Shown here: one piece after another, positions 4,393 to 30,307 of the stretch
How the letters are laid out: each line of letters opens with the position of its first letter
Numbering within the stretch: position 1 is the stretch's first letter
From: Solirubrobacterales bacterium
Lineage (GTDB): Bacteria > Actinomycetota > Thermoleophilia > Solirubrobacterales > Solirubrobacteraceae
Direction of reading: 5' to 3'
Assembly (NCBI GenBank): GCA_027451345.1
Contig: DAIDJO010000121.1
Span: forward strand, 1 to 36,059
Length of the DNA: 36,059 nucleotides
Notes under the pieces: generated by a model
Database searches by the model: none
Told to the model about the DNA's origin: nothing
Seen by the model: only the letters and a program-made list of their open reading frames with translations
Position numbers and translations under genes: made by a program

Positions 4393-4421
4393 GTGGCCCC
4401 GGGCCGACTGCGTGGCCCCGG
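4393..4421. repeat. 10-bp direct repeat after a stop codon
   Basis: GTGGCCCCGG occurs at 4393-4402, immediately after the TGA of the secreted protein gene, and again at 4412-4421 (19-bp period). It is short and could be chance, but resembles the duplications after other gene ends in this window. Confidence 0.5.
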
Positions 4422-4448
4422 CCTGACCGGGCGGCGCCGGGGCGGGAC

Positions 4449-4454
4449 TAAGCT
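4449..4454 (+). promoter_or_regulatory. Leaderless -10 element of msrA (TAAGCT)
   Basis: TAAGCT ends 7 nt before ATG 4462 with no ribosome binding site in between, the spacing expected for a leaderless actinobacterial mRNA. Confidence 0.55.
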
Positions 4455-4461
4455 TGTCCCC

Positions 4462-5151
4462 ATGTTCGAACTCTTTCGTGAAAAGACGCGGATGATCGAT
4501 CCGCAGCGGGCTCTGCCGGGCCGCGCGCAGGAACTGCCGGTGGCCGCCGCGCACACGGTGCTCGGCGCACCGCTGAAGCCGCCGTTCCCCGATGGCCTGC
4601 AGACGGCCGTGGTGGCCCTCGGCTGCTTCTGGGGCGCGGAGCGCGCCTTCTGGACGCTCCCGGGCGTCTACACGACCGCCGTCGGCTACGCGGGCGGCTA
4701 CACGCCCAACCCGACGTACGAGGAGGTCTGCAGCGGCAGCACGGGACATGCCGAGGCGGTGCTCGTCGTCTTCGACCCCGCGCGGATCTCCTACGAGGAG
4801 GTGCTGGCGCACTTCTGGGAGAGCCATGACCCGACCCAGGGGATGCGGCAGGGCAATGACGTGGGCACCCAGTACCGCTCCGCCATCTACTGCGCTGACG
4901 ACGAGCAGCGGCGGATCGCGGAGGCGTCCCGGGCCGCCTACGCCGAACGGCTTCGCGCGGCGGGGTACGGCGAGGTCACCACCGAGATCGCACCGGCCGG
5001 ACCGTTCTACTACGCCGAGGATTACCACCAGCAGTACCTCGACAAGAACCCGGGCGGGTATTGCGGCCTCGGCGGAACCGGTGTCAGCTGCCCGATCGGA
5101 CTGCCCCTCGAGGCCGACGTCTCCCCCGTCTCCACCGGGCCACTGAGCTGA
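4462..5151 (+). CDS. msrA: Peptide-methionine (S)-S-oxide reductase MsrA
   Basis: 229 residues. Cytosolic enzyme that repairs oxidised methionine by reducing methionine-S-sulfoxide. The catalytic motif GCFWGAE has the nucleophilic Cys at residue 55. Other family blocks are present: [61 protein letters not shown] and [17 protein letters not shown], the last with candidate resolving cysteines. The protein has an N-terminal extension of about 45 residues before the catalytic domain, as in E. coli-type long MsrA. ATG 4462 is set by the leaderless -10 at 4449. The HAD gene follows 23 bp later on the same strand and is probably co-transcribed. Confidence 0.96.
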
Positions 5152-5174
5152 CCGCGCGCCACGGCGGGGCGACC

Positions 5175-5801
5175 ATGCCCGACGCAACCGATGCGGTCCG
5201 CATCGTGCTGTTCGACATCGGCGGGGTCCTCGCCCGTTTCCGCGGGCTCGAGGTCCTCCGCGAGCTGACCGGAGCGGGGTCGGAGCACGAGGTCGCCGCG
5301 CGCTGGCTGATGAGCCCGTGGGTGCGGCGGTTCGAATCGGGCGGCTGCACCGACGAGGAGTTCGCCCTCGGGGTCGTCCAGGAGTGGCAGCTGCCCTACA
5401 GCGCGACCGAGTTCCTGGACCGTTTCCCCGACTGGCTCGACGAGCCCTTCGAGGGGGCGGAGCGCATGGTGCGGGAGACGGCGGAGCGCATCCCGGTGGG
5501 GTGCCTGAGCAACACCAACGCCCTGCAGTGGCGGACCAAGATCTCCCATTGGACGCTCGCCGAGCGCTTCACCCACCGCTTCCTGTCCTTCGAGCTCGGT
5601 GCCGTGAAGCCCGACCGCCTGATCTACGAGCGCGTGATCGAGCGTCTGCCCGCTGCGCCCGACCTGGTGCTCTTCCTCGACGACAACCCGCTGAACGTCG
5701 AGGGCGCACGCGCCGCCGGCCTGCGGGCGGAGCAGGCCGAGGGGGTGGCGCAGGCCCGCGCCGCGTTGGCCCGCCACGGGGTGCGGCTCGACGATTCCTA
5801 G
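5175..5801 (+). CDS. HAD-family (YihX-like) hydrolase
   Basis: 208-residue haloacid-dehalogenase-like protein, subfamily IA variant 3. It contains motif I (VLFDIGGVL, nucleophile Asp near residue 14), motif II (GCLSNTN), motif III Lys (LGAVKPDRLIYE) and motif IV (LFLDDNPLNVEGA). The second motif-I Asp, the usual acid/base, is Gly here (DIGG), as in YihX-type and epoxide-hydrolase N-domain relatives. It is therefore probably a sugar-phosphate phosphatase with modified chemistry, or a non-phosphatase HAD. Start ATG 5175 has GCGGGGCG upstream, a weak ribosome binding site. It lies 23 bp after msrA, likely in one transcript. Its stop codon shares the palindrome CTAG (5798-5801) with the convergent DoxX gene. 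Confidence 0.85.
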   Translation: MPDATDAVRIVLFDIGGVLARFRGLEVLRELTGAGSEHEVAARWLMSPWVRRFESGGCTDEEFALGVVQEWQLPYSATEFLDRFPDWLDEPFEGAERMVRETAERIPVGCLSNTNALQWRTKISHWTLAERFTHRFLSFELGAVKPDRLIYERVIERLPAAPDLVLFLDDNPLNVEGARAAGLRAEQAEGVAQARAALARHGVRLDDS

Positions 5802-6214
5802 AGGCCCGGGGCCGCCTCGCCCCCAGGCGCTCCCGGCGGGCGGCCGGCGGCAAGCACCCAGGCGAGGAACAGTCCCTGCAGCGGCAGGCGCCAACGGAGC
5901 GCGCGCGCCCCGCCGGGCACCCGCGGGAAGTCCTCGGGATGGCGCGCCATGTGGACGTTGGCCGGAAAGACCGCGAGCAGCGTCGCGACCAGCCACCAGC
6001 GCGCGCGGCTCCGCGTGCCGGGGAGCATCAGCCCGATCCCGCCACCCACCTCCGCCACGCCGCTGAGGAAGACGAGCGCGCCGGGGGCGGGCAGGTACGG
6101 CGGCACGATCCGCCGGTAGAACCCCGGCTTGAGGAAGTGCAGGACCCCGGCCACCACGAAGGTCGGGCCGCAGAGCCGCCGCAGCAGGCCGGCTCCCCAC
6201 CCCCCTCTCGTCAC
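5798..6214 (-). CDS. DoxX-family membrane protein
   Basis: 138 residues with about four hydrophobic helices and the DoxX signature pattern: FVVAGVLHFLKPGFYRRIVPPYLP, then FLSGVAEVGGGIGLMLPG, ANVHMARHPED and a last helix LFLAWVLAAG. DoxX proteins sit in the membrane and have been tied to thiosulfate:quinone oxidoreductases and, in mycobacteria, to a thiol-oxidative-stress complex with a sulfurtransferase. The start GTG overlaps the stop of the sulfur carrier gene (GTGA at 6214-6211), so translation is probably coupled. It is the third gene of the SAM-riboswitch operon, which fits a sulfur or redox role, though its reaction is unknown. Confidence 0.8.
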   Translation of the reverse strand: MTRGGWGAGLLRRLCGPTFVVAGVLHFLKPGFYRRIVPPYLPAPGALVFLSGVAEVGGGIGLMLPGTRSRARWWLVATLLAVFPANVHMARHPEDFPRVPGGARALRWRLPLQGLFLAWVLAAGRPPGAPGGEAAPGL

Positions 6215-6486
6215 TGCCCGCCGGCGACGGCGGGCAGGATCGTCACCTCCGCCCCATCGGCGACCGCCGTCGCGAGCCCGTCGAGGAAGCGGATGTCCTC
6301 CCCGCCGACGTACACGTTGACGAAGCGTCGCAGGCCGTCGTCGTCCGCGATCCGCGCCTTCAGATCCCCGAACCGCTCGTACAGCGCGTCGAGCACCTCG
6401 GCGACGGTCGTGCCGTCGACGACCGCGACCGCCTCACCGTCGGTGGCCGCGCGCAGCTGGGTCGGGATCTTCACGTTCACTGGCAT
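6211..6486 (-). CDS. MoaD/ThiS-family sulfur carrier, CysO-like, with Gly-Gly-Gln end
   Basis: 91-residue ubiquitin-fold sulfur carrier. The C-terminal half (RFVNVYVGGEDIRFLDGLAT, then VTILPAVAGG) is nearly the consensus of mycobacterial CysO, which carries sulfur as a C-terminal thiocarboxylate for cysteine synthesis. Unlike CysO, the reading frame continues one codon past the diglycine, ending GGQ. The carboxylate to be activated would therefore be buried unless the Gln is removed, as JAMM-type proteases do for some carriers. ATG 6486 is chosen from the family N-terminus (MPVNVKIPT); AGGAGA lies 13 nt upstream, a long spacing. It is the second gene of the riboswitch operon, 22 bp after thrC, and its TGA overlaps the doxX GTG. 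No E1-like activase or JAMM protease is in the window. Confidence 0.9.
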   Translation of the reverse strand: MPVNVKIPTQLRAATDGEAVAVVDGTTVAEVLDALYERFGDLKARIADDDGLRRFVNVYVGGEDIRFLDGLATAVADGAEVTILPAVAGGQ

Positions 6487-6508
6487 CTGAGACTCGTTTC
6501 TCCTGGGG

Positions 6509-7747
6509 TCATGCGGCCACGGCACCCAGCCGCGACTCGTGCGCCTGCTCGAAGGATTCGGCCCGGGCATCGATCTCCCACGCCTCGAAGGTGCCGCGAG
6601 CACACTCGAGCGTCTTCAGTCCCTCGCCCGTGATCACGGCGACGACTCGCTCGCTCGCGTCGATGTCCCCTCGCTCGGCGAGCGCGCGCAGCACCGCGAT
6701 CGTCACGCCGCCGGCCGTCTCGGTGAAGATGCCCGTCGTCTGCGCGAGCAGCCGGATCCCGTCGACGATCTCCTCGTCTGTGACGGCGTCGATCGACCCG
6801 CCCGTCCGGCGCGCCAGATCGAGCGCGTAGGGGCCGTCGGCGGGGTTGCCGATGGCCAGCGACTTGGCGATCGTCTCCGGCTTGACCGGACGGCAGTGAT
6901 CGCGTCCCTCGGCGAAGGCCGTCGCCACCGGCGAGCACCCCGCGGCCTGCGCGCCGTTGAACGTCGGCAGCGAGCCCTCCAGCAGGCCGGCCTCGATCCA
7001 CTCCTCGAAGCCGCGGGCCAGCTTCGTGAACAGCGAGCCGGACGCAATCGGCCCGACGACGCGGTCGGGCAGGGCGAAGCCGAGCTGCTCGGCGATCTCG
7101 AAGGCGAGCGTCTTGGATCCCTCCGCGTAGTAGGGCCGCATGTTGATGTTGACGAAGGCCCACTCGTGCTCACCCGCGAGCTCCGTGCAGAGACGGTTGA
7201 CGTCGTCATAGTTGCCCCGGACCGCCACGAGGTTGGTCCCGTAGATGCCGGTCGCGAGCACCTTCTGCTCCTCCAGGTCGGAGGGGATGAAGACGAACGA
7301 CTCGAGGCCCGCCGCGGACGCGTGGGCGGCGACCGCGTTGGCCAGGTTGCCGGTCGAGGCGCAGGCGATCGTGGTGAAGCCGAGCTCCTGAGCGCGCGCG
7401 AGCGCGACGGAGACGACGCGGTCCTTGAAGGAGTGGGTCGGGTTCGCCGCGTCGTTCTTGACCCAGAGCTCACCGAGGCCGAGCTCCCGCGCCAGGCGGT
7501 CGGCCCGGATCAGCGGCGTCCACCCGGCGGCGAGGGCGGAATGCGGGTGTTCCACCGGCAGGAAGTCGGCGTACCGCCACATCGAATACGGTCCGGCCTC
7601 GATCCGTCGCCTCAGCTCGGCCGGGTCCAACCCGGCCCGCGAGGCGTAGCGGACCTCGAGCGGACCGAAGCACTGCTCGCACACGTACCGTGCCTCGAGC
7701 GGGTACTCGGTCCTGCATTCCTTGCATCTGAGCGCTTCTGGCGGCAT
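6509..7747 (-). CDS. thrC: Threonine synthase-like PLP enzyme under a SAM riboswitch
   Basis: 412-residue fold-type II PLP enzyme. An N-terminal zinc ribbon (C8, C11, C23, C26) is followed by the PLP site NPTHSFKDR (Schiff-base Lys108), STGNLANAVAAHA, the phosphate loop region VGPIASGSLFTK and ETAGGVTIAVL. By family it converts O-phosphohomoserine to threonine. Two facts question that as its only role: it is preceded by a SAM-I riboswitch, and it is followed by a CysO-like sulfur carrier. An alternative is a beta- or gamma-replacement forming homocysteine or cysteine from a thiocarboxylate. Start ATG 7747 is firm, with GGAGGT 8 nt upstream. A hairpin that can hide this ribosome binding site lies in the leader. 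Confidence 0.9.
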   Translation of the reverse strand: MPPEALRCKECRTEYPLEARYVCEQCFGPLEVRYASRAGLDPAELRRRIEAGPYSMWRYADFLPVEHPHSALAAGWTPLIRADRLARELGLGELWVKNDAANPTHSFKDRVVSVALARAQELGFTTIACASTGNLANAVAAHASAAGLESFVFIPSDLEEQKVLATGIYGTNLVAVRGNYDDVNRLCTELAGEHEWAFVNINMRPYYAEGSKTLAFEIAEQLGFALPDRVVGPIASGSLFTKLARGFEEWIEAGLLEGSLPTFNGAQAAGCSPVATAFAEGRDHCRPVKPETIAKSLAIGNPADGPYALDLARRTGGSIDAVTDEEIVDGIRLLAQTTGIFTETAGGVTIAVLRALAERGDIDASERVVAVITGEGLKTLECARGTFEAWEIDARAESFEQAHESRLGAVAA

Positions 7748-7756
7748 ATGAGAACA

Positions 7757-7783
7757 CCTCCGCCGGGTATCAGTGGTCGGAGG
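7757..7783 (-). promoter_or_regulatory. Shine-Dalgarno-sequestering hairpin (riboswitch expression platform)
   Basis: On the coding strand CCTCCG (7783-7778) can pair perfectly with CGGAGG (7762-7757), closing a 15-nt loop. The 3' arm includes the GGAGG ribosome binding site of thrC. This is the geometry of a translational SAM riboswitch platform. The antisequestering pairing was not worked out. Confidence 0.55.
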
Positions 7784-7799
7784 GTGAAACCGCCCTACC

Positions 7800-7905
7800 C
7801 ACATCTCCCAGGCTTGTCGTTGGAGCCTGATGGAATTGGCACCGTTTCCTTGCGGTCGGTTGCCGGGGCTTCGTAGGGCCATTTCCCTCCACCCCTCTGG
7901 ATGCG
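7800..7905 (-). ncRNA. SAM-I (S-box) riboswitch aptamer
   Basis: Read on the minus strand, the aptamer contains the conserved S-box core in order: AGAGGGGUGGAGGGA, GGCCC, GAAGCCCCGGCAACC, GGUGCCAAUUCC, a P4 helix AGGCU/AGCCU, then GGGAGAUG. The P1 strands CGCAUC (7905-7900) and GAUGUG (7805-7800) pair. All four helices of the junction can be drawn. S-box aptamers bind S-adenosylmethionine and normally switch genes off when SAM is plentiful. The next gene downstream is the thrC-like gene. Aptamer identity is firm; the sign of control is by family analogy. Confidence 0.95.
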
Positions 7906-7923
7906 TACTGCTATGTGCGCGGC

Positions 7924-7931
7924 AGTATAGG
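7924..7931. promoter_or_regulatory. Overlapping divergent -10 elements
   Basis: On the minus strand TATACT (7929-7924) lies just upstream of the riboswitch 5' end and would start transcription near 7917. On the plus strand TATAGG (7926-7931) could serve the lipid kinase. The two hexamers overlap, so the two promoters may compete. No convincing -35 was found. Confidence 0.45.
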
Positions 7932-8001
7932 GATCGGCGGCGACGTCGAGAGCTTGAGTCGCCCGCCGGCGTCGCGCGCCGGTTTGCCAGACTCTCGCTC
8001 C

Positions 8002-9006
8002 GTGAACGCGACCGGATACGACCCCGGCCTTGAGCTGCTCGCGCAGGCCGGGGACGCCGAGGAGGCGGATCGCCGGCGCCTGCTGATGATCGTCAACCCG
8101 TACGCCACCACGGTGTCGGCTCGGCTGCGCAACCTCGTGATCTCGGCGCTGCGCGGCAGCTACCTGGTTGACGCGATCGACACCGAGCGCCGCGACCACG
8201 CCACTGAGATCTGCCGCGAGGCGGCACAGGAGGGGTACGACGCCGTGGTGGCCTTCGGTGGAGACGGCACCGTCAACGAGGCGGCAAACGGCCTGGCCGG
8301 AACCGGAACCCCGCTCACGTGCCTGCCGGGAGGGCGGGCCAACGTCTACTGCCGGATGCTCGGGATCCCCGCCGATGTGATCGAGGCCACCGAGCATCTC
8401 CTCGGGCTCGCCGCCGACTGGCGCCCGCGCAAGGTCGACCTCGGGCGCGTGGACGAGCGCTTCTTCCTCTTCTCCGCCGGAATCGGGCTCGACGCGAGCG
8501 TGGTGGCCCGCGTCGACGCCCACCCGCGCCTCAAGGCGCGGCTCGGCGAGTGGTACTACGCGTGGGTGGCGACCACGACGTTCGCCCGCCGCTATCTGTA
8601 CCGACCCCCGCGCCTGTCGGCCGCGATCGAGGCGAGCCCCACGACCGGCGCCGGACGCGTCGAGGGGGTGACCGTCCTGGTCCAGAACGCGCACCCGTAC
8701 ACCTACTTCGGGGAGCGCGCCGTCGAGATGGCGGAGGGAGCGGCCCTGCAGAGCGGTGACCTGGCCGGTCTCGTCCTCACCCGCACGAGCCCGCTCGATG
8801 TCCCCTCGATCGCCTGGCGGGCGCTCTCGCCGCGGCGGCGCGTGGCCGACCACCGCCGCATCGAGCCGTTCCGGGCGACACGACGGCTGCACATCCACTC
8901 CGTGGACGGACGCGCCCTGCCCCTGCAGGTGGACGGCGACTTCATCGGCCACACGCACGAGGCGACGTTCACGGTCGCCCCGGGCGCGCTGGCGATCATC
9001 GCCTGA
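8002..9006 (+). CDS. Diacylglycerol/sphingosine kinase-like lipid kinase (YegS/DgkB type)
   Basis: 334 residues. The N-terminal DAGK catalytic domain has the nucleotide-binding opening RRLLMIVNPYA (about 26-35), then VAFGGDGTVNEAANGL with GGDGT at 86-90 and LPGGRANVYCRMLG. The C-terminal beta-sandwich ends in the family pattern LPLQVDGDFIGH. It is expected to phosphorylate a lipid alcohol such as diacylglycerol at the inner membrane face, using ATP and Mg2+. GTG 8002 is chosen because it directly precedes the conserved domain; no ribosome binding site is seen, and CAGACT 8 nt upstream resembles the leaderless -10 of neighbouring genes. The frame stays open upstream to 7915. Its 3' end is convergent with the dioxygenase, and both stop codons lie in one inverted repeat. 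Confidence 0.88.
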   Translation: MNATGYDPGLELLAQAGDAEEADRRRLLMIVNPYATTVSARLRNLVISALRGSYLVDAIDTERRDHATEICREAAQEGYDAVVAFGGDGTVNEAANGLAGTGTPLTCLPGGRANVYCRMLGIPADVIEATEHLLGLAADWRPRKVDLGRVDERFFLFSAGIGLDASVVARVDAHPRLKARLGEWYYAWVATTTFARRYLYRPPRLSAAIEASPTTGAGRVEGVTVLVQNAHPYTYFGERAVEMAEGAALQSGDLAGLVLTRTSPLDVPSIAWRALSPRRRVADHRRIEPFRATRRLHIHSVDGRALPLQVDGDFIGHTHEATFTVAPGALAIIA

Positions 9007-9034
9007 GCGGGCCGCCTCGGGCCGGCCTCAGGCG
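9000..9034. terminator. Inverted repeat spanning two convergent stop codons
   Basis: CGCCTGAG (9000-9007) and CTCAGGCG (9027-9034) are perfect complements around a GC-rich centre. Each arm contains the stop codon of one of the two convergent genes, so one hairpin could end transcription from both sides. There is no T tract. Confidence 0.45.
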
Positions 9035-9924
9035 CCGTCGGGCGCGAGCACGATGTCGAACCGCACCCGCGTCCAGGCGCGGTCGCCCAGCTCACGGCTG
9101 TCCGGCGTCGGCGTTCCCGGCGCCTGGCGCAGGAACTCCCGCACGAGCGATTCCCGCACCCCGAACACCGCGTCGCCGGCGGTGCGCAGCGCCTCCCCGG
9201 CGACGAAGATGTGCGTGATCAGCGTGCGCCGCCCCGGCGCCTGCACGAGGAAGTGCAGGTGCGGCGCCCGCATCGGCGAGCGTGCGGTGGCGGCGAGCAG
9301 CGCGCCCACGGGCCCGTCATGCGGGATCGGGTACGGCACGGGAGTGAGCGCCCAGAAGCGGAAGGCCCCCTGGGCGTCGGCCACCAGGCGCCCGCGGGCC
9401 GCGGTTCGCTCGCCGTCGTACTGGACGTCGTAGAGGCCGTTCTCGTCGCACTCCCACACCTCGAGCCGCGCCCCCGGCACCGGGCTCCCGTCGGTGTCGC
9501 GCACGCATCCGTGCACCCAGCAGGGCTCGCCCGGCGCGCCCTGCGCGATGTCGCCGCCGAGCGGGATCTCCGGCGCGCCCTCGACGAAGAACGGTCCGAG
9601 CACCGTGGCCTCGGTCGCCGCGGCACACGCGGGGTTGTTGATCGTCACCGTCTGCATCGACACCCCGAGCACGTCGGAGAGCAGCACGAACTCCTGACGG
9701 CGCGCGTCGCACATCTGCCCCGTCGCGGTGAGGAACTCGATGCCGGCGCGCCACTCCTCCTCGGTCAGGCGGGTGTCCCGCAGGAACGCGTGCAGGTGTC
9801 GGGTGAGCGACTCGAGCACGACGCGCAGGCGGGGGTCGGGTGTGGTCCGCAGCGACCGCAGCACCGCATCGGTCACCGCCTCCTCCCGGGCCCGTTGCTC
9901 GGGCGTGGCGTCGCCATCCTCCAT
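9028..9924 (-). CDS. Intradiol ring-cleavage dioxygenase (hydroxyquinol/catechol 1,2-dioxygenase type)
   Basis: 298 residues. Non-haem Fe(III) enzyme that cleaves an ortho-dihydroxylated aromatic ring between the hydroxyls. An N-terminal helical dimerisation domain (about 15-105) precedes the beta-sandwich. The four expected iron ligands are visible: Y165 (LYDVQYD), Y198 (VPYPIP), H222 and H224 (APHLHFLV). GCVRDTDGSPVPGARLEVWECDENG is the standard intradiol core. Length and the dimerisation domain favour the catechol/hydroxyquinol 1,2-dioxygenase class over protocatechuate 3,4-dioxygenase; the exact substrate cannot be read from sequence. No other aromatic-degradation gene is nearby, so it is an orphan. 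It is transcribed away from the replication-relaxation gene, and a small palindrome lies in the 98-bp divergent spacer. Confidence 0.92.
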   Translation of the reverse strand: MEDGDATPEQRAREEAVTDAVLRSLRTTPDPRLRVVLESLTRHLHAFLRDTRLTEEEWRAGIEFLTATGQMCDARRQEFVLLSDVLGVSMQTVTINNPACAAATEATVLGPFFVEGAPEIPLGGDIAQGAPGEPCWVHGCVRDTDGSPVPGARLEVWECDENGLYDVQYDGERTAARGRLVADAQGAFRFWALTPVPYPIPHDGPVGALLAATARSPMRAPHLHFLVQAPGRRTLITHIFVAGEALRTAGDAVFGVRESLVREFLRQAPGTPTPDSRELGDRAWTRVRFDIVLAPDGA

Positions 9925-12346: not shown

Positions 12347-12380
12347 CTCAGCCGGTCGCACCCGGACCTCAGCCGGTCGC
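12347..12380. repeat. 13-bp direct repeat, 21-bp period, at relA stop codon
   Basis: CTCAGCCGGTCGC occurs at 12347-12359 and 12368-12380. The second copy contains the relA stop codon (TCA at 12369-12371 on the plus strand). The first copy repeats it in frame seven codons further along the transcript. Confidence 0.75.
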
Positions 12381-14717
12381 GCCGGGCGTGACCCGGTAGG
12401 CGTCAAACACGTTGTCGATGTTGCGCAGCCGCGTGATCGCCTGATCGAGCGTGCGGGTGTCCCCCACCTCGACCACGAACTGGTTGCGGATCATCGGGTG
12501 GTTGACGGTGCACCGCGCCTCGATGATGTTGATGCCCGCCTCGGCGAAGGTGCGGGACATGTCCTCGAGCAGTCGGTGGCGGTCCCATCCCTGCACCTCG
12601 ATCTCGACCTGGAAGGAGGTCTCGGCGTCCCCGTCCCAGGAGACGGGCGTGAAACGGTCGGGATCCTTGCGCAGGACCTGCGCGTTCGGGCAGTCCTCAC
12701 GGTGGATCGTGATCCCCCGGCCGAGCGAGATGTAGCCGACGATCGCGTCCCCCGGGACCGGGTGGCAGCACTTGGCCATGCGCAGCATCACCTCGTCGAT
12801 GCCGTCGACCGTGATGCCGTACCGGTTGGAGGAGGTCGTGGAGCGGGAGCGGCGGCGCCCGGCGGACATCAGATCGGCCGCCGCGGTCTGCTGGGTCTCG
12901 GCCGCCTCCCCCGCCTTGAGCCGCTGCATCACCTTGTTGATCACCGTCTGCGGTGAGATCTTCGCCGCGCCGAGGGCGATGTAGAAGTCGTCGCCCTTGC
13001 GGAAGCCCATCTCCCGGATCACCTCGGCCATCAGCGGCGAGGCGACGATCTTCTGGGAGGGCAGCCCCTGCTTGCGCAGGTGCTCCTGCAGCAGTTCGCG
13101 ACCGGCGTGCTCGGTGTCCTTGCGGCTCTCGGCCTTGTACCAGGCCTTGATCTTGTTGCGCGCCCGCGTCGTCTTGACGAGGGAGAGCCAGTCGCGGGAC
13201 GGCCCGCGCTCGCGCTTGGAGGTGAGGACCTCGACGATGTCCCCGGAGCGCAGCTGGTAGGAGAGCGGGACGATCTTGCCGTTCACCTTCGCACCGACGC
13301 AGCGGTGACCGACGTCGGTGTGGACGTCGTAGGCGAAGTCCAGCGGGGTCGCCCCCGCGGCCAGCGACTTCACCTCACCCTTGGGGGTGAACACGAAGAC
13401 ATCGTCCTCGAACAGGTCGACCTTCAGCGTCTCGACGAACTCACGGGGGTCCGAGACGTCCTTCTGCCAGTCGACGAGCGAGCGCAGCCACTTCAGCTTG
13501 CCGTCGGGGTCACGCAGCGCCGCGTCACCGCCGGCCTTGCCGGGGGCGCGGCCCGCGGGCGTTCCGCCCTCCTTGTACATCCAGTGCGCGGCGATACCGA
13601 ACTCGGCCAGGTCGTGCATCGCACGGGTGCGGATCTGGATCTCGAGCGGCCGTCCCTCGGGCCCGATCACCGTCGTGTGCAGCGACTGGTACATGTTGAA
13701 CTTCGGCATCGCGATGAAGTCCTTGAAGCGGCCGGGCAGCGGCTTCCACAGCGAGTGGATGACGCCGACGGTGCCGTAGCAGTCCTTCACCGATCCGACG
13801 ATCACGCGCATCGCGGTGAGGTCGTAGATCTCGTTGAACTCCCGGCCCTTCTTCGTCATCTTCGAGTAGATCGAGTAGAAGTGCTTGGCCCGTCCGGAGA
13901 TCTCGGCGGTGATGCCGACCTCCCCGAGCTCGTCGGCCAGGTACTGCCCGGCGGCGTTGACGTAGCGCTCGCGATCGTCGCGGTGCTGGGCCACGAGGGT
14001 CTTGATCTCGTTGTACTTGCGGGGATGCAGTGCCTGGAAGGCGAGGTCCTCGAGCTCCCACTTGATCGCGTGGATGCCGAGGCGGTGCGCGATCGGCGCG
14101 TAGATGTCGAGCGTCTCGCGCGCCTTGTCGATCTGCTTCTGCTTCGGCATCGCGTCGATCGTGCGCATGTTGTGCAGCCGGTCGGCGAGCTTGATCAGGA
14201 TGACCCGGATGTCCGAGGCCATCGCGACGACCATCTTGCGGTAGTTCTCCGCCTGCGCCTCGTCGCGCGACTGGAACGTCAGTTCCGTCAGCTTCGTCAC
14301 GCCGTCGACGAGCCCCGCCACCTCCTCGCCGAACCGCTCGCGGATGTCCTCGAGCGAGGCGTGGGTGTCCTCGACGGTGTCGTGCAGCAGCGCGGCGCAG
14401 AGCGTCTCGGTGTCCAGGCGCATCCCGGCACAGATCTTCGCGACGCTCACCGGGTGGACGATGAACTCCTCGCCCGACCGGCGGAACTGGTGGGCGTGAT
14501 GCCGGCAGGCGTAGACGAAGGCGGCCCGCACGCGCTCACGGTCGACCGCGATGGCCGCCTCGTCGGCGTGCTCCTCGACAACGGCGAAGAGGTCGCCGAG
14601 CAGTCCCTGCTCGAACTCGCTCAGCGCCTCGGCCGCGCGTTCGGTCACGGGCGCGGGCTCGGATGGCGATCCTGCGAGCGGCGCGCCGCCCCCGACGGCC
14701 GGACCGTCGGCCAGCAT
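12369..14717 (-). CDS. relA: Bifunctional (p)ppGpp synthetase/hydrolase Rel
   Basis: 782 residues. Stringent-response enzyme of the long RSH type. The order is HD hydrolase domain with intact HDTVED (112-117), synthetase domain (DLTAMRVIVGSVKDCYG, RFKDFIAMPK, NMYQSLHTTV), TGS domain (VFTPKGEVKSLAAGATPLDFAY), a conserved helical/zinc-finger region (MLRMAKCCHPVPGD) and a C-terminal ACT domain (ETSFQVEIEVQGWDRHRLLEDMSRTFAEAGINI). With both catalytic halves complete it should make and degrade (p)ppGpp. It is last in a minus-strand run after recJ, with a 101-bp spacer, so it may also have its own promoter. The first 35 residues are poorly conserved, so the true start could lie slightly downstream of ATG 14717. 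Confidence 0.97.
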   Translation of the reverse strand: MLADGPAVGGGAPLAGSPSEPAPVTERAAEALSEFEQGLLGDLFAVVEEHADEAAIAVDRERVRAAFVYACRHHAHQFRRSGEEFIVHPVSVAKICAGMRLDTETLCAALLHDTVEDTHASLEDIRERFGEEVAGLVDGVTKLTELTFQSRDEAQAENYRKMVVAMASDIRVILIKLADRLHNMRTIDAMPKQKQIDKARETLDIYAPIAHRLGIHAIKWELEDLAFQALHPRKYNEIKTLVAQHRDDRERYVNAAGQYLADELGEVGITAEISGRAKHFYSIYSKMTKKGREFNEIYDLTAMRVIVGSVKDCYGTVGVIHSLWKPLPGRFKDFIAMPKFNMYQSLHTTVIGPEGRPLEIQIRTRAMHDLAEFGIAAHWMYKEGGTPAGRAPGKAGGDAALRDPDGKLKWLRSLVDWQKDVSDPREFVETLKVDLFEDDVFVFTPKGEVKSLAAGATPLDFAYDVHTDVGHRCVGAKVNGKIVPLSYQLRSGDIVEVLTSKRERGPSRDWLSLVKTTRARNKIKAWYKAESRKDTEHAGRELLQEHLRKQGLPSQKIVASPLMAEVIREMGFRKGDDFYIALGAAKISPQTVINKVMQRLKAGEAAETQQTAAADLMSAGRRRSRSTTSSNRYGITVDGIDEVMLRMAKCCHPVPGDAIVGYISLGRGITIHREDCPNAQVLRKDPDRFTPVSWDGDAETSFQVEIEVQGWDRHRLLEDMSRTFAEAGINIIEARCTVNHPMIRNQFVVEVGDTRTLDQAITRLRNIDNVFDAYRVTPGATG

Positions 14718-14818
14718 GGCCCCGTCGGTCAGCGTCGCGCCATCGGCGCGACGGGGATCCTCGCGACCGTTGTCACCGGTTGGCGACGGCGTGACGCGGC
14801 CGTTCGCCCGCTGGGGGC

Positions 14819-17332
14819 TCAGGTCGCTCGCCGGAATCTCAATGCGCTCAGGAATCGCTGGCCGTCCTCATACCGTTTCGTGTACGCCCCGTAGGCCGGC
14901 GAACGCTCGAGCTCCGTCGGCGTGGCGCTGGCGACCTCCAGGGCCGGCAGATCCGGATCGAGGTTGACGAGCTCCAGCTCCGTGAGCACCCGCACGAGGC
15001 GCCCGGCCAGCCGTGCTGACCGCGCGTGCCCGCCGTCGCCCCGGAGCAGTTGCTCGAGCCCTTCCCCGGTGGCCCTCCCCTGTTCCCGCAGGGCTCGGTA
15101 GAGGGCCACGAGCGAAGCGCGGAGACCGTACTCCAGCTCATGTATCTGCTGAGCAAAGCGTAGCTCAGCCTCGCCCCAGGCCAGGTGGGTGTAGCCCGCG
15201 CCCAGCCGGATCACCGCCTCCTGCTCGGGCGAGGACGGGGGGTCGAGGACCACGACGTGCTCGTACTCCCCCACGATTTCCGGTTCCTCGAGCGCCGCCT
15301 CGTGACCGAGCAGAGCGAAGCCGCCGCGGCGGCCGGCCAGGCCGGCGAGTCGCCGGGGCACGTCGGCACAGAGCAGGAGGACCGGCTGCTCGGGGCCGGA
15401 GACGGCCTGCACGTCGGTGATCGTCGCCAGCGGGCTGCGTCCCCGCCAGTCGAGCACCCGCCGCTCGCTCTCCGGCGCGCAGTCATACGCGACACCGCCG
15501 TCCGGATCCACGTCGTCGGCGAGGTCGCGGTCGAACTCCATCAGCACGCTCGCGAGGTAGTCCTCCGGCTCGCCGAGGACGTGGATGGGCGACGGGACGC
15601 ACGGCGCGCAGCGCTGCAGGATCAGGCGCGGTTCGACCACGCCGTTCCAGACGTTGCGCTCGAGGCGGAAGCTCGCATCGACCGGGCCGCCGTCGGCGCC
15701 GGCGATCCGCCCGTCACAGCCGAAGGCCACCGCGTTGGCCCGGGCCCCGCCGGAGTTGACGTTGAAGCGCACGTGCTGACCGCTTTCGCCCATCGCGCGG
15801 ACCCCGTCGAACGTCGCCGCGGCGACGTACAGGCGGACCTCCGGGTTGCCGCTTCCGAACGGCGCGAGCGTCTGCAGCGACTCGGCGAGCTCGAGCGACA
15901 GGTCCGCCGCGGAGACCACGGCGTCGGCGCGTTCCACCGGGCGCAGCAGCTCCGGGGTGAGCCGCTCGGCGGCATAGCGCTCGAAGGCGTCGCGGAAGGC
16001 CGGGATCGCCTCGGGGGCGATGCTCAGCCCGGCGGCCGCCCGGTGCCCACCATAGGTGAGGAGGTGCTCTCCGGTGGCCTCGAGGGCGCCGAGCAGGTCG
16101 AATCCGGGGATGCTGCGGCCGGAGCCGTGCGCCGCCGCGGCCGGATCGGCGGGATCGAGCGCCAGCATGATCGCCGGCCGGTGGTGACGCTCGACGATCC
16201 GCGAGGCGACGATCCCGATCACCCCGGCGTGCCAGCCCGGCGCGGCGAGCACGTAGGCGCTGCGCTCGCCCATCTCGGCGGCGATGGCCTCGGCCTCCCA
16301 GGCGATCCGCTGCTCGGTCGCGCGGCGCTCCGCGTTCACCGCGTCGAGCTCCTGCGCGATCCGCTGCGCGCGCGCCGGGTCGTCGGTGAGCAACAGCTCA
16401 AGACCCGCGTCAGCGCGTCGCATCCGCCCGGCCGCGTTGATCCGCGGCGCGAGCCGGAAGGCGAGACAGGCGGCGTCGAGCGCGCTCGGATCGGTGCGCG
16501 AAACGGCCATCAGTGCCCTCAGCCCCGGACGGCGGGTGCCCGCCATCTGGTTCAGTCCGTCCCGCACGATCCGCCGGTTCTCCCCCTGCAGCGGCATGAG
16601 GTCGGCGACGGTGGCGAGCGCGACGAGCTCGAGGTCCTCGGCGGCCGTCGGCGCCCCGAGCGCCTCGGCCAGCTTGTGCGCGACCGCGGTGCCGCACAGG
16701 TCCGGCGTCGGGTAGCGGCAGATGGCGGGGTGCACGATCGGACAGTCCGGCAGGGCGCCATCACCGCGCGGGGCGTGATGGTCGGTGACGACCACGTCGA
16801 GGCCGAGGGACGCCGCCGTCTGCACCGGTTCCACGGCGGTGATCCCGCAGTCGACCGTCACGAGCAGCCGGCCCCCGGCTTGCGCCAGGCGCTCGACCGT
16901 CGTCACCGACAGTCCGTACCCATCCTCGCTGCGGCTCGGCAGATACCAGCCGACGTCGGCCCCGAGCGCCTGCAGCGCCCGGACGAGCACGGCGGTGGCG
17001 CAGACCCCGTCGACGTCGTAATCGCCGTGCACGATGATCCGCCCGCCGCCGCGGACGTGTCGCCAGATGACGTCGAGAGCGTCGGTGAGCCCGGCGAACA
17101 GCGCCGGGTCGTGTCGCTCGTCGGCGGCCAGGAAGGCCCGCGCGGCGTCGGGATCGGCGAGGCCGCGGCGCACGAGGATCTGCGAGAGCACGTGGCTGAC
17201 CCCGAGCTCCCGCTCGAGCGCCAGCGCCGCCTCCAGCTCGTACCCGGGCAGCTCGAGCCGCGGACCGGCGAGCTCAGGGGCGAGCGGCGGATCGGCGGCG
17301 ATGGACGGAGAACGGACGCTGAGGCTGGCCAC
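14819..17332 (-). CDS. recJ: Single-stranded-DNA-specific exonuclease RecJ
   Basis: 837 residues. 5'-3' ssDNA exonuclease of mismatch repair and RecF-type recombination. DHH motifs: HGDYDVDG (102-109), VTVDCGI (D161), VVTDHHAPRGD (DHH 184-186) and LAPRINAAGRM. The DHHA1 domain has GWHAGVIGIVASRI and GGHRAAAGLSI. After the OB-fold region comes a C-terminal extension of roughly 250 residues (from about ESERRVLDWRGRSP to the end) resembling the extra domain of long Gram-positive RecJ proteins. GTG 17332 is chosen because TACTCT lies 6 nt upstream on the coding strand (leaderless) and it starts directly before the conserved region; the frame stays open far upstream. It lies between the small membrane protein gene and relA. 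Confidence 0.95.
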   Translation of the reverse strand: MASLSVRSPSIAADPPLAPELAGPRLELPGYELEAALALERELGVSHVLSQILVRRGLADPDAARAFLAADERHDPALFAGLTDALDVIWRHVRGGGRIIVHGDYDVDGVCATAVLVRALQALGADVGWYLPSRSEDGYGLSVTTVERLAQAGGRLLVTVDCGITAVEPVQTAASLGLDVVVTDHHAPRGDGALPDCPIVHPAICRYPTPDLCGTAVAHKLAEALGAPTAAEDLELVALATVADLMPLQGENRRIVRDGLNQMAGTRRPGLRALMAVSRTDPSALDAACLAFRLAPRINAAGRMRRADAGLELLLTDDPARAQRIAQELDAVNAERRATEQRIAWEAEAIAAEMGERSAYVLAAPGWHAGVIGIVASRIVERHHRPAIMLALDPADPAAAAHGSGRSIPGFDLLGALEATGEHLLTYGGHRAAAGLSIAPEAIPAFRDAFERYAAERLTPELLRPVERADAVVSAADLSLELAESLQTLAPFGSGNPEVRLYVAAATFDGVRAMGESGQHVRFNVNSGGARANAVAFGCDGRIAGADGGPVDASFRLERNVWNGVVEPRLILQRCAPCVPSPIHVLGEPEDYLASVLMEFDRDLADDVDPDGGVAYDCAPESERRVLDWRGRSPLATITDVQAVSGPEQPVLLLCADVPRRLAGLAGRRGGFALLGHEAALEEPEIVGEYEHVVVLDPPSSPEQEAVIRLGAGYTHLAWGEAELRFAQQIHELEYGLRASLVALYRALREQGRATGEGLEQLLRGDGGHARSARLAGRLVRVLTELELVNLDPDLPALEVASATPTELERSPAYGAYTKRYEDGQRFLSALRFRRAT

Positions 17333-17338
17333 CGACCC

Positions 17339-17344
17339 AGAGTA
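17339..17344 (-). promoter_or_regulatory. Leaderless -10 element of recJ (TACTCT)
   Basis: TACTCT on the minus strand ends 6 nt before GTG 17332; no ribosome binding site is present. It suggests recJ can be transcribed apart from the secDF genes. Confidence 0.5.
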
Positions 17345-17373
17345 GGTGGCGGCTCCGACGGAAGCGGCCGGGC

Positions 17374-17658
17374 TCAGGCGAGGCTCGCGGCGGCCCCGGC
17401 GCCGCGCTCGCGCCGGATCCCCTCGGCGTAGATCAGCCCGATGCCGATCACCGAGCCGGGAATCCCCTCGAGCGCCGTCACCAGGTGAGTGGTGTGCGGC
17501 CCGGGGACGCTGAACCCGTGGATGGCGAGACCGACCAGCACCGCGCCGACCAGCGAGCCGAGGAACGCACCGACGATCCCACCCCAGTAGTGGTCGGGCA
17601 GCCAGATCGTGAAGTGCCAGATGGCGAGTCCCATCATCGCCCAGGCGAGCAGCCCCAT
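17374..17658 (-). CDS. Small membrane protein of unknown function
   Basis: 94 residues with two strong hydrophobic helices (1-20, LLAWAMMGLAIWHFTIWL; about 27-47, GIVGAFLGSLVGAVLVGLAIHG) and a possible third (about 68-80, GSVIGIGLIYAEG). The glycine-zipper second helix resembles transglycosylase-associated (YeaQ-like) small proteins, but I would not assign that family firmly. Start ATG 17658 is certain: AGGAGG lies 5 nt upstream and the codon overlaps the secDF stop (ATGA). It is therefore translationally coupled to secDF and might be an accessory of the export machinery or only a passenger. Confidence 0.8.
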   Translation of the reverse strand: MGLLAWAMMGLAIWHFTIWLPDHYWGGIVGAFLGSLVGAVLVGLAIHGFSVPGPHTTHLVTALEGIPGSVIGIGLIYAEGIRRERGAGAAASLA

Positions 17659-20600
17659 CAGCGCCTCCTGCCGTGCCGGCGGTTGCGGGTCTTCGCGCGC
17701 CGGGCGGCGGGGGGCGTCGGGTTGGCGACCCCGTCGTTCTCCGGTTCATCCGGGGCCGGGGTCACCGCGTCGCCCCGACCGGGGGCCTGCGCGTCTCCTG
17801 GACCCACGGCATCTCCCGATCCCGGGACAGGCTCGCTCGCCGGCGGGGTCTCGGTGACATCGAGCGCGTCGTCGGCGGGAGCGCTCGGTCCGATCGAGGG
17901 AAGCGGCGCGGGGGCCGGCTCCGCCGGCGGCGTCGGCGCGCTGGGCCGCGGGCGGGAGGTCAGGGTCGAGCTGCCACGGGACCCGCGGCGCGGCGCGGCG
18001 GGGGCGGGCTCGTCCTCCTCGGTCACGTGCGCGGTCCGCTCGGCGAGCCGGGAGGGCCGCTGCCGGGGGCCGTCGTCCTCGAGCCCGAGGTCGCGCTTCA
18101 TCTGCTCGAACTCGGCGTTGGAGACGTTCTCTCCCGGCGGCGCGGTCAGGCGGCCGGTCGAGCGCGTGCGGCGCGGGGTCGGGTCGACGTCGCCGCCGTC
18201 GGCGTAGGCCGGGACGTGGCCGACGTCGGCGATGATCCGCAGCCGGCGGGCGCGGTAGGCGTGCTCACGCTCCTTCCAGTGCGTCAGCACCGGCGAGGCG
18301 ATGAAGATCGACGAGTAGGCGCCGGAGGCGACACCGATCAGCAGCGCGAAGGCGAAGTCCTGGAGGGTGGCGCCACCGAAGAGGAGCAGCGCGATCACGG
18401 GCAGCAGGGTGCACGAGGTGGTGATGAGCGACCGGGTCAGCACCTCGGACATCGACCGGTTGACCACCTGTGAGAACGCCGCCCGCGGCATGCGCGGCAC
18501 GTTCTCCCGCACCCGGTCGAAGACGATGATCGTGTCGTAGAGCGAGTAGCCGAGGATCGTCAGCAGCGCCGCGACCGTGTTGGCGGTCACCGTGCGCCCC
18601 ACCAGGGCGTAGACACCGGCGGTGATCAGCAGGTCATGCATCAGCGCGATCAGCACGGGCACCGTGAACTTCCACTCGAAGCGGAGCGCCACATACAGCG
18701 AGATGACGATCAGGGAGACGATGATCGCGACCACGGCGCTGTGGGTGATCGTCGAGCCGAAGGCCGGGCCGACCGAGGTGGCGTTGAAGCCCTTCGTGCC
18801 CCCGTGGATCCCGAAGCGCTGCTCGAGCGTGGTGCGCAGCTGCTCGTAGTGGCCCTGCGAGAGGTACTTCGAGGTGATCTGGTAGCCGTAGGCGCCGAGC
18901 GTCTTTGAGTGGTGGACGGCCTGCACGGTCACGTCGCTGCCGCCGGACTTGGTCACGAGCGTCTTGACGGTGGCGACGCTCGCGCTGTGCTGCAGGCCGA
19001 CCGAGATCTGGGTGCCGCCGGTGAAGTCGATGCCGAGCTTCAGGCCGCGGCCGCCGATCGCCAGCGCGCCGATGAGCAGGATGACGCCCGACATCGAGAA
19101 GAAGTACCGGCTCGCGCCCATGAAGTCGAAGCGCCAGTGGCGTCGCTCGCCGCCCGCCCCGAGCGCCGACGGGCTCTGGATCGCGCGCGAATCGCCCATC
19201 GTGGTGAGGATCGCCTGCGTGGCGAGCACCGCCGTGAAGAGCGAGACGAACGTGCCGATGCCGAGCGTGAAGGCGAAGCCCTTCACGTCGGAGGTGGCGA
19301 GCACGAAGAGGATGAACGCGGTCATGATCGTGACCACGTTGGCGTCGATGATCGCGGTGATGCCCTTGCGGTAGCCGGTGACGATCCCCTGGCGGATCGA
19401 GCGCCCGCCGCGGATCTCCTCCTTGACCCGCTCGAAGATGACGACGTTCGCGTCCGCGGCCACGCCGATCGTCAGGATCAGGCCGGCGATCCCGGCGAGC
19501 GTCATCGTGATGGGGATCAGCTTGATCAGCGCGTAGAAGTAGATGCCGTACGCGATCAGGCCACCGACGGCGATCACGCCGAGCACCCGGTAGTACCCGA
19601 TCAGCAGCAGCACGACGACGGCGAGGCGGACGAGGCCGGCCACGAGCCCCTGGTGGAGCGCCGTGGCACCGAGCGTTGCGGACACCTGGTTCTCGGAGAT
19701 CTGCACGAGCCGCACGGGCAGGGCGCCGAGCCGCAGCTGCGTGGCGAGCTGGGCCGCGGTGGTGGTGGTGAACCCGCCGAAGATCTCGCTGCCGCCGCTC
19801 GACGGGATGCCCTGCGGGAACTGGTTGTAGTCGATCGAGGCGACGCTGATCAGCTGGTTGTCGAGCGCGATGGCGAAGTGCTGCTTGATCGACTGGCCCG
19901 GCGGGCTGTCGAGCTTCCCGCGCTCGGCGATCGTCCCCGTCACGCTCTGGAAGATGTTCGCCCCGCCGTTCTTGAAGCCGAACGTGACGTCCGGGGATCC
20001 GCTCGAGTCGGTCCCGGACTGCGGGTTGGTGATCTTGTCGCCGGTGAGGGCGACGTCATCGCGCACCACGTAGTACCCGGCGTTCGGCGTGCCGTACTTC
20101 GGCCAGTTGGCGAAGTTGCTCGGGGTTGCCTGCAGGACCTGCGTGCCCTGGGGCACGACGAGGGTCTGGGTGCCGGCGGTCTCGGCCGGGGTGAGGTTCG
20201 CCTTCAGCTGTGCCTCGGCGGCGGCGTGGCTGACCCCGATCGGCGCCGTCAGCTGCGCGATCAGGCAGTGCACGCCCTGCTGCACCTTCGTCCCCTGCGC
20301 CGCGGCGGCGGCGGCGCAGGCCGAGCTGCCCGGCGCTCCGAACAGGAAGTACTGGTTGCCGAAGCCCGAGGTGTGCTTGTCGTTGCGGATGAGCTTCTGC
20401 TGGGAGCCGAGCTTCACCGCCTGGTAGAAGCCGAGCGCACCGGCCGCGGGCGACGGGGAGCCGGCCTGGGCCGAGGCACCGGCGAGCGCCAGCGCCTGGG
20501 GGTTGCTCGTCAGGATCCCGGCCGCGGCCGGCGTGCCGGACGGCGTGAGGACGTTCGCCTCCCAGTCGTAGAAGAAGAGCTGCGAGGTCTTGCCGACGAG

Positions 20601-20912
20601 CTTCTCGGCCTGGGCCACGTTCTGGACGTCCGGCAGCTGGACGTCGATCAGGTCGGTGCCGGTGGTGGTGATCTGCGGCTGGGAGACACCGAGCTGGTTG
20701 ACCCGGTTGTTCATCACGTCGACCGCACGCTGGAGCGCGGCCGGGGTGATCACCGGCGTCGACGGCGTGCGCTCGGCCCGGTAGACGAGCTCGACGCCGC
20801 CCTTCAGGTCGAGACCGAGCCGCGTCGGCCGAGTCGCGATCAGCGCGACCGATGCGGCGATCAGCCCGGCCACGAGCAGCAGGACGAATCCGTGGCGTTG
20901 GCGGTCGGTCAT
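17658..20912 (-). CDS. secDF: Fused protein translocase subunit SecDF
   Basis: 1084 residues. Accessory subunit of the Sec translocon that uses the proton gradient to pull proteins out of the cytoplasm. SecD half: N-terminal helix, LGLDLKGGVELVY, a large periplasmic domain with an Ala/Cys-rich insertion, then LILTIGVAADANVVIFERVKEE. SecF half: LKLGIDFTGGTQI, then LTILGYSLYDTIIVFDRVRENV. Both conserved D4 signatures are present. The protein continues about 190 residues past the last helix as a Pro/Ala/acidic, probably disordered cytosolic tail ending in a strongly basic cluster (RRAKTRNRRHGRRR). ATG 20912 has TAGCAT 9 nt upstream. It heads the run secDF, small membrane gene, recJ, relA. Confidence 0.95.
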   Translation of the reverse strand: MTDRQRHGFVLLLVAGLIAASVALIATRPTRLGLDLKGGVELVYRAERTPSTPVITPAALQRAVDVMNNRVNQLGVSQPQITTTGTDLIDVQLPDVQNVAQAEKLVGKTSQLFFYDWEANVLTPSGTPAAAGILTSNPQALALAGASAQAGSPSPAAGALGFYQAVKLGSQQKLIRNDKHTSGFGNQYFLFGAPGSSACAAAAAAQGTKVQQGVHCLIAQLTAPIGVSHAAAEAQLKANLTPAETAGTQTLVVPQGTQVLQATPSNFANWPKYGTPNAGYYVVRDDVALTGDKITNPQSGTDSSGSPDVTFGFKNGGANIFQSVTGTIAERGKLDSPPGQSIKQHFAIALDNQLISVASIDYNQFPQGIPSSGGSEIFGGFTTTTAAQLATQLRLGALPVRLVQISENQVSATLGATALHQGLVAGLVRLAVVVLLLIGYYRVLGVIAVGGLIAYGIYFYALIKLIPITMTLAGIAGLILTIGVAADANVVIFERVKEEIRGGRSIRQGIVTGYRKGITAIIDANVVTIMTAFILFVLATSDVKGFAFTLGIGTFVSLFTAVLATQAILTTMGDSRAIQSPSALGAGGERRHWRFDFMGASRYFFSMSGVILLIGALAIGGRGLKLGIDFTGGTQISVGLQHSASVATVKTLVTKSGGSDVTVQAVHHSKTLGAYGYQITSKYLSQGHYEQLRTTLEQRFGIHGGTKGFNATSVGPAFGSTITHSAVVAIIVSLIVISLYVALRFEWKFTVPVLIALMHDLLITAGVYALVGRTVTANTVAALLTILGYSLYDTIIVFDRVRENVPRMPRAAFSQVVNRSMSEVLTRSLITTSCTLLPVIALLLFGGATLQDFAFALLIGVASGAYSSIFIASPVLTHWKEREHAYRARRLRIIADVGHVPAYADGGDVDPTPRRTRSTGRLTAPPGENVSNAEFEQMKRDLGLEDDGPRQRPSRLAERTAHVTEEDEPAPAAPRRGSRGSSTLTSRPRPSAPTPPAEPAPAPLPSIGPSAPADDALDVTETPPASEPVPGSGDAVGPGDAQAPGRGDAVTPAPDEPENDGVANPTPPAARRAKTRNRRHGRRR

Positions 20913-28715: not shown

Positions 28716-29333
28716 CTAGGTCTCCTTCGCCGTGGGTTCGCCGAATCCTGCCAGCGACAGGAAGAACCGGTGCAGGCGGTCCTCGCCGGTGAGCTCGGGG
28801 TGGAAGGACAGGGCGAGGATCCGGCCCTGTCGGATGGCGACCGGGTGCCCGTCGACCTCGGCGAGCACCGTGACGTCGGGGCCGTGCTCGGCGATCCACG
28901 GGGCGCGGATGAAGATCGCGTGCACGGGCCCGCCGTCGACGCCGTCGACCTCGAAGGACGCCTCGAACGAGTGCAGCTGTCGGCCAAAGGCGTTGCGCTG
29001 CGCGAGGACGTCGAGGATGCCGAGGTGCGCCCGGTCGAGCATGATCATTCCGGCGCAGGTGCCGAGGATCGGCGTCCCCCCGGCGGCGAGACGGCAGAGC
29101 GGCTCCTTCAGTCCCTCCCGTTCGACCCCGAGCGTCATCACCGTCGACTCGCCGCCGGGCAGCACGAGCGCGTCGATCCCCTCGAGGTCGGTGGGAACGC
29201 GCACCTGCCGGGTGCGCGCGCCGAGTCGGCGGAGCACTCGCTCATGCGCCTCGAACCCGCCCTGCAGGGCGAGGATCCCGACGAGTGGGGCCGGGCGGCC
29301 CGTCGCCTGCTCCGCGCCCGTCGCCGGACTCAC
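28716..29333 (-). CDS. pdxT: Pyridoxal 5'-phosphate synthase glutaminase subunit PdxT
   Basis: 205-residue class-I glutamine amidotransferase that supplies ammonia to PdxS. Triad: Cys93 in GTCAGMIML, His178 and Glu180 in [11 protein letters not shown]. Also [24 protein letters not shown] and [11 protein letters not shown], all characteristic. GTG 29333 overlaps the pdxS stop (GTGA), so translation is coupled. An N-terminal extension of about 15 residues precedes the conserved strand. Confidence 0.96.
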
Positions 29334-30235: not shown

Positions 30236-30241
30236 GCAGCG

Positions 30242-30307
30242 AGTGTAACTCGGCCGACGTTCGCCGGATCGGCAGAACCTCGCCCGACTCCACACTCCAG
30301 ATAGCCT
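30242..30307. promoter_or_regulatory. Two divergent leaderless -10 elements (pdxS and thioesterase)
   Basis: TACACT on the minus strand (30247-30242) lies 6 nt before the pdxS ATG. TAGCCT on the plus strand (30302-30307) lies 8 nt before GTG 30316. The word ACACTC also occurs in opposite orientations near each promoter (30246-30241 and 30292-30297). Confidence 0.5.

Follow-up and report, generated by a model that had tools for sequence, protein, structure and literature searches.

In the MetM/MetO system of Hasebe et al. 2024, metO reportedly adjoins metM, and O-phosphohomoserine and the thiocarboxylate of the carrier protein MetO are said to yield homocysteine. Carrier proteins also supply sulfur in the CysO-CysM-JAMM system, which has a CysM-type enzyme and makes cysteine, and in the HcyS/MetY protein-thiocarboxylate route of Wolinella, which forms homocysteine from a carrier thiocarboxylate with a PF01053-type enzyme and an acylhomoserine. 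The accessible parts of PMC12172450 credit Hasebe et al. 2024 with the homocysteine synthase MetM of Streptomyces, with homologues in cyanobacteria, place an S-adenosylmethionine (SAM) riboswitch upstream of S. albulus metM, and match S. albulus metO to the carrier gene beside Microcystis thrC. Operon rows 4c and 4d of PMC1779556, likewise available in part, link a fold-type II pyridoxal phosphate (PLP) enzyme to a GG-ending carrier, as in the CysO system, and row 4e contains operons with a carrier, JAB and O-acetylhomoserine sulfhydrylase. Here we describe a similar operon in the window, a stretch of 36,059 nucleotides of a Solirubrobacterales bacterium (contig DAIDJO010000121.1 of assembly GCA_027451345.1), in which a SAM-I riboswitch precedes a gene of the threonine synthase family, a sulfur carrier gene and a third, DoxX-like gene. 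It is highly likely, judging from sequence and genome comparison, that this operon is a MetM/MetO methionine unit in which SAM controls a homocysteine synthase that depends on O-phosphohomoserine and is fed by the carrier.

As far as the available description of the Streptomyces system goes, the window shares with it a threonine synthase (ThrC) homologue, an adjacent carrier gene, an upstream SAM riboswitch and O-phosphohomoserine as the proposed substrate; the likeness to S. albulus is one of description. The window differs in belonging to another class of Actinomycetota, in a carrier with one additional residue after the GG, and in the overlapping DoxX-like gene. The CysO-CysM-JAMM system is set apart by its CysM-type enzyme, and such a cluster is present separately in the window's genome, whereas the HcyS/MetY route differs in that the window enzyme is of the PALP/threonine synthase family and not of the PF01053 type. 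An earlier note, made from the letters of the window, had recognized the aptamer and the order and reading frames of the three minus-strand genes correctly, and had suggested an undescribed pathway in which carrier sulfur is added to an activated serine or homoserine. Such a transfer to an activated homoserine fits the regulation, the linkage and the genome context and is probably right in substance, but since MetM and MetO with a SAM riboswitch were described in Streptomyces in 2024 (PMC12172450, in its accessible parts) the operon would belong to a known system rather than an undescribed one. The label "threonine synthase" very probably hides an enzyme that makes homocysteine with carrier-protein sulfur and is switched off by SAM, a reading that would resolve the puzzle of a SAM-off switch before a thrC-labelled gene, and would, with strong support from the regulation, carry the pathway known from Streptomyces into another class. 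A literature search found no account of this operon in this class, with most subscription journals outside its coverage and absence therefore unproven; the term "threonine synthase" has 0 occurrences in PMC1779556, and no SAM riboswitch with a carrier-linked thrC was seen in the accessible parts of PMC3766115 and PMC12452182.

The metM-like product is a fold-type II PLP enzyme of the threonine synthase family with an N-terminal cysteine motif, and we propose it as an O-phosphohomoserine-dependent homocysteine synthase. A quick maximum-likelihood tree of 83 rows separates a ThrC clade (20 rows) from a MetM-type clade (57 rows), each with an SH-aLRT of 100, and the latter contains the window, its order, other actinobacteria and 12 cyanobacteria, including Microcystis novacekii, whose homologue shares 58.6% identity with the window protein. 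The threonine synthases of PDB entries 2d1f, 1uim and 6cgq belong to the same family by sequence, and the window protein lies in the separate clade; it is 34% identical to the solved M. tuberculosis structure 2d1f, compared with 60% for the ThrC of genome G015. When the 57 MetM-type rows were compared with 21 ThrC rows, requiring a column to be at least 93% fixed within each group, 25 columns were fixed to different residues, among them the GNAG loop (MetM type: ASGS), PASA (TAGG) and the positions right behind the SFKDR lysine motif. The arginines at 2d1f sites 169 and 251, present in all 21 ThrC rows, are tyrosine and alanine in 57 of 57 MetM-type rows. In this family, these differing sites would lie at the cofactor or substrate. 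The window protein passes the TIGR00260 (thrC) cut-off despite lying outside the ThrC clade and lacking its fixed residues. The six remaining rows of the tree (L295-L300), called "mid" here and excluded from the site comparison, are long-branched, deep-branching threonine-synthase-like proteins between ThrC and MetM, several of them with the N-terminal cysteine motif.

Scores against a profile of the order separated in a phylum sample of 149 genomes, at least 469 bits in 54 genomes and at most 290 bits otherwise. If the proposed function is true, many actinobacterial "threonine synthase" genes, of a type present in those 54 genomes, belong to methionine synthesis. Among 591 relatives the named loci closest to the window operon are from Conexibacter, Solirubrobacteraceae and Thermoleophilaceae, and a viral scan with the window enzyme gave seven pattern matches with no relative among them.

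The Rfam SAM model RF00162 matches the leader over its full length, far above the gathering score of 44.4 bits, with the 3′ end of the aptamer 50 nt upstream of the threonine-synthase-family gene. We examined 41 genomes, namely the window's genome, 24 of the same genus and 16 of the same order, and the riboswitch is not a chance match, because 37 of the 40 SAM-I matches in them lie at most 600 nt upstream of a thrC-family match. TIGR00260 matches occur in all 41 genomes, and in 37 of these a SAM-I aptamer lies within that distance upstream of one of the matched genes. Two order relatives carry SAM-I at the metH 5′ end (G032, 45.7 bits, and G029, 43.9 bits; L138 and L139), with about 25 nt of overlap between the 3′ end of the aptamer and the first start codon listed; the domains of this gene are those of cobalamin-dependent methionine synthase. 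A SAM-I match in G031 (L137, 3501-3591, 58.1 bits) has no clear target gene downstream. Across the phylum sample, SAM-I lies within 500 nt of 33 of the 54 MetM-type genes.

The carrier gene begins 22 nt downstream of the metM-like gene, and its product terminates in PAVAGGQ, so that the window has an adjacent sulfur carrier with a C-terminal GG, as in the MetM/MetO system, followed by one residue. MetO stands behind the enzyme in 34 of 36 checkable order loci, window included (37 riboswitch-linked loci in all), in 28 of 31 phylum loci, and in 78 of 80 named loci, these being the best 80 of the 591 relatives; one of the two misses among the named loci is a locus that is too short, and at L192 and L226 the MetO assignment is either weak or out of frame. 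In G011 the contig stops inside metM; a second piece of metM, on contig C20, has the MetO behind it. Complete MetO proteins number 34 (the window, 32 other riboswitch-linked loci and a second copy in G023); 20 end in GG, and 14, including that of the window, have one or two extra residues. The carrier, which the earlier note called CysO-like, is of ThiS/MoaD type and has the PDB matches 4n6e_B and 3dwg_C, which we take to be CysO chains, but it is not CysO itself: no cysM adjoins it, and a CysO-type paralogue, 47% identical to it, adjoins a cysM-type gene elsewhere in the genome. That paralogue, ending in GGAR, is clustered on contig C107 (L160, 1721-4680) with a rhodanese-E1 (MoeZ-type) gene, the CysM-type enzyme and a JAMM protease. 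An activating enzyme and a protease thus exist in the window's genome, and a JAMM gene is found in 38 of the 41 genomes.

Genome context provides a further line of evidence, for which 26 of the 41 genomes, with completeness of at least 90% and contamination of no more than 5%, are referred to as good. An unswitched TIGR00260 gene is also held by 35 of the 37 switch-bearing genomes (in G003 as a 450-base fragment only), and the two exceptions, G005 and the window's genome, also lack a thrB match. Homoserine kinase (thrB), which is needed to make O-phosphohomoserine, is matched at E 1e-10 in all 26 good genomes and is over its cut-off in 35 of 41, with a fragment in G002 and scores just below the cut-off in G027 and G033. 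It is the unswitched thrC that keeps company with thrB. Among the 39 genomes in which thrB is matched, the two are no more than 600 nt apart in 33 (for the genus, 22 of 23), and in the remaining six thrB is either 3 kb off (G035) or on another contig; hom adjoins the unswitched thrC in G012 and is some 5 kb from it in G015. Acyl-homoserine routes are sparse. MetA-type PF04204 is present in 8 of 41 genomes and 2 of the good ones, and MetX-like matches above 400 bits in two, both good. The TIGR01392 (MetX) cut-off of 500 bits is reached by none of seven matching control genomes and does not discriminate in these genomes, so we counted only the 427 and 451 bit matches (G002, G035), each beside a PF01053 gene, leaving uncounted weaker matches of 105-142 bits in G003, G005, G011 and G016, two of which are good genomes. 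On this count, 21 of the 26 good genomes have a SAM-controlled MetM-type gene with neither acyl-homoserine enzyme, and 10 have no PF01053 (metB/C/Y/Z) match at E 1e-20, all 10 with the riboswitch and MetM-type gene. The proposed function, if true, would explain the supply of homocysteine in genomes without a metX, metA or metB/C/Y/Z match. For the window's genome itself, where the earlier note had suggested a check of metB, metY and metX, there are two PF01053 genes and no MetA-type PF04204 or MetX-like match.

The features of the operon are collected in Table 1.

Table 1. Genes and RNA elements of the window operon, with positions in the 36,059-nucleotide stretch.
Feature	Positions	Strand	Details
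DoxX-like membrane protein gene	5798..6214	-	138 aa; PF07681 19.8 bits, E 0.0013, below cut-off 23.6
metO-like carrier gene	6211..6486	-	91 aa; PF02597 (ThiS) 56.4 bits; NF041918 (SAMP1-type) 68.3 bits vs cut-off 60
metM-like gene	6509..7747	-	ATG at 7747, 412 aa; TIGR00260 294 bits vs cut-off 167; Pfam PALP
Expression platform hairpin (predicted), CACCCTCCG / CGGAGGTG	7755..7786	-	3′ arm contains Shine-Dalgarno GGAGG (7761-7757)
Predicted anti-sequester helix	7773..7802	-	GTGG of P1 3′ strand (7802-7799) with CCAC (7776-7773)
SAM-I (S-box) riboswitch aptamer	7798..7907	-	RF00162, 82.8 bits, E 2.9e-18, full length (model 1-108)

The leader is predicted to form three mutually exclusive helices, P1 of the aptamer, the GTGG-CCAC pairing, and a hairpin with the Shine-Dalgarno GGAGG in its 3′ arm. 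In segments folded up to a point before the hairpin 3′ arm, at least three of the four GTGG-CCAC pairs are predicted in all 21 leaders (the window and 20 of the same genus); when the 3′ arm is included and the P1 5′ strand omitted, four to five of the five GGAGG bases are paired in 15 of the 21; the window has three of them paired, L110 and L113 none. All 20 same-genus relatives have the hairpin motif, which in 15 is accompanied by a terminator-like T-run, a count limited to same-genus leaders because two of the 25 loci in the automatic terminator scan (L134 and L136) look spurious. The window hairpin misses the strict motif by one base, having one extra C, and has no T-run, making translation control the likelier mode there. 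No consensus promoter or terminator was found within 5700-8050, where shuffles averaged 0.1 and 0.5. When the whole window leader is folded without constraints, the aptamer is absent from the minimum-energy structure, and the basis of the switch model is the Rfam match together with the segment folds. On these predicted folds, the ribosome site would stay open at low SAM, allowing synthesis of MetM and MetO, and at high SAM P1 would take the strand needed for the anti-sequester, the Shine-Dalgarno hairpin would form, and expression would be off. The C-terminal GG of MetO would be activated to a thiocarboxylate, probably by the MoeZ-type protein of C107, and MetM would strip the phosphate from O-phosphohomoserine and place the carrier sulfur on the gamma carbon, either directly or after its release by a JAMM protease; the homocysteine so formed would then be methylated by methionine synthase. 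Of this scheme, the data show the aptamer, the order of the genes, the clade, the linkage and the MoeZ-type and JAMM genes of the genome, from which the substrate, the sulfur donor, the mechanics of the switch and the partners are inferred.

Several observations weigh against this assignment. Four of the 41 genomes (G014, G017, G020, G022) have a ThrC-type gene only, with no riboswitch and no MetM-type gene, and in the phylum sample 21 of 54 MetM-type genes have no SAM-I match within 500 nt. At least three of these 21 begin near a contig end, and no other riboswitch class reached its gathering score in the ten of these loci that were scanned (L182-L186, L192-L195, L197). The metH match of G029 is just under the gathering score. 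G012 (L127) and G024 (L125) keep the riboswitch and MetM-type gene and have no MetO-type carrier, their genomes retaining carriers that are 45-47% (CysO-type) and 35% identical; and the window MetO, ending in GGQ and not in GG, would need trimming. A second homocysteine route, a MetA-type gene beside a PF01053 gene, is present in eight same-genus genomes (G001, G004, G005, G006, G007, G018, G022, G023), among which the assembly of G022 shows no MetM linked to a riboswitch. On contig C119 of the window's genome (L161, 2845-5357) a PF01053 gene adjoins one for cystathionine beta-synthase (569 bits, cut-off 510); the PF01053 gene is nearest a cystathionine gamma-synthase model and below its cut-off. 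The two are likely a reverse transsulfuration pair; with two PF01053 genes in the genome, this nevertheless leaves some room for forward transsulfuration. The main evidence against comes from PMC12172450, which reports on a ThrC from Microcystis aeruginosa that has 51.6% identity to the MetM of S. albulus and is encoded beside a metO-like gene: that in vitro it converts O-phosphohomoserine to threonine and deaminates threonine, that Na2S as a sulfur source gave only an unidentified peak near methionine, and that the authors doubt that this protein, whose gene has no SAM riboswitch, fully acts as a MetM in cells.

The Microcystis result bears on a bifunctional enzyme, making both threonine and homocysteine (or also deaminating threonine) from shared O-phosphohomoserine with SAM tuning the split. 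This we regard as unlikely: the window enzyme scores above the TIGR00260 cut-off, and the cyanobacterial ThrC matched to MetM has threonine synthase and deaminase activity (PMC12172450, as available), but 35 of the 37 switch-bearing genomes keep another thrC-family gene, the two ThrC arginines are replaced throughout the MetM-type rows, and SAM control would seem ill-suited to a genome's threonine supply. That the gene encodes a plain threonine synthase, whose flux the riboswitch restricts for some indirect reason, is highly improbable. It has in its favor the family annotation and the failure to find a second thrC (TIGR00260, E 1e-20) in the window's assembly, where the metM-like gene is the sole family member, and against it the separate clade, the additional thrC-family genes of the related genomes, the linkage to a sulfur carrier and the two SAM-I sites at metH. 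The missing gene also counts against a MetM role; however, the assembly is 85% complete and has no thrB match, and because thrB lies near the other thrC almost throughout the genus, the absence of a second thrC is probably an assembly gap. No hom match was found in this assembly either, in a search with a single G012 query and no positive control.

Different sulfur chemistry also has to be weighed. A CysM/CysO-like enzyme forming cysteine from O-phosphoserine and the carrier would agree with the resemblance of the carrier to CysO-type PDB chains, but this is extremely improbable given the SAM control, a threonine synthase score far above those of the CysK/M models, and the presence of cysM-type, cysO-type, moeZ-type and JAMM genes as a cluster in the same genome. 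More plausible, and still distinctly unlikely, is that MetM uses free sulfide in vivo, with MetO assisting it or acting for a different partner; G012 and G024 retain the riboswitch and the MetM-type gene but no MetO, and Na2S was tried with the cyanobacterial enzyme and gave the unidentified peak noted above (PMC12172450), whereas the carrier gene is linked in nearly all loci of the three sets. Within the favored carrier-fed homocysteine synthase, we speculate that there may be a shared thiocarboxylate pool, such that in G012 and G024 CysM and MetM are both fed by CysO, with their one JAMM protease responsible for release, and that the one- or two-residue tails of MetO mark a pro-carrier opened by that protease. 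This extension is a tentative one that we think rather unlikely, yet if true, lineages without MetO would depend on a single carrier for making cysteine as well as methionine, and the natural MetO-less genomes would be test cases for carrier sharing.

The earlier note had grouped a DoxX protein with the other two genes as a trio, and only the enzyme-carrier pair proved conserved; the PF07681 match falls short of the cut-off for Pfam membership (Table 1). The GTG start of the gene overlaps the carrier stop. No tblastn match to its product at E 0.01 was found in 40 other stretches, 37 of them metM loci, and at least 500 nt is present behind MetO in 31 of the 34 other MetO-bearing loci. A role for DoxX as a conserved partner of metM-metO was accordingly rejected, and we regard the gene as a local addition outside the conserved unit. 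In G008, metM-metO is followed by msrA and a HAD gene, which lie on the opposite strand.

An msrA gene and a HAD hydrolase gene also converge on the operon in the window (4393-5801), and the pair lies behind metM in G008 (L121), G012 (L127) and G024 (L125), with an msrA match in 10 further metM loci. On the other side, a diacylglycerol/lipid kinase gene diverges from the operon and is followed by a gene of the catechol dioxygenase family (7915-9924). Farther along the window (12369-20912 and 29330-30295) are genes for RelA/SpoT, RecJ and a SecD/SecF fusion, and a PdxS-type (SOR/SNZ) gene, of a family of PLP synthesis.

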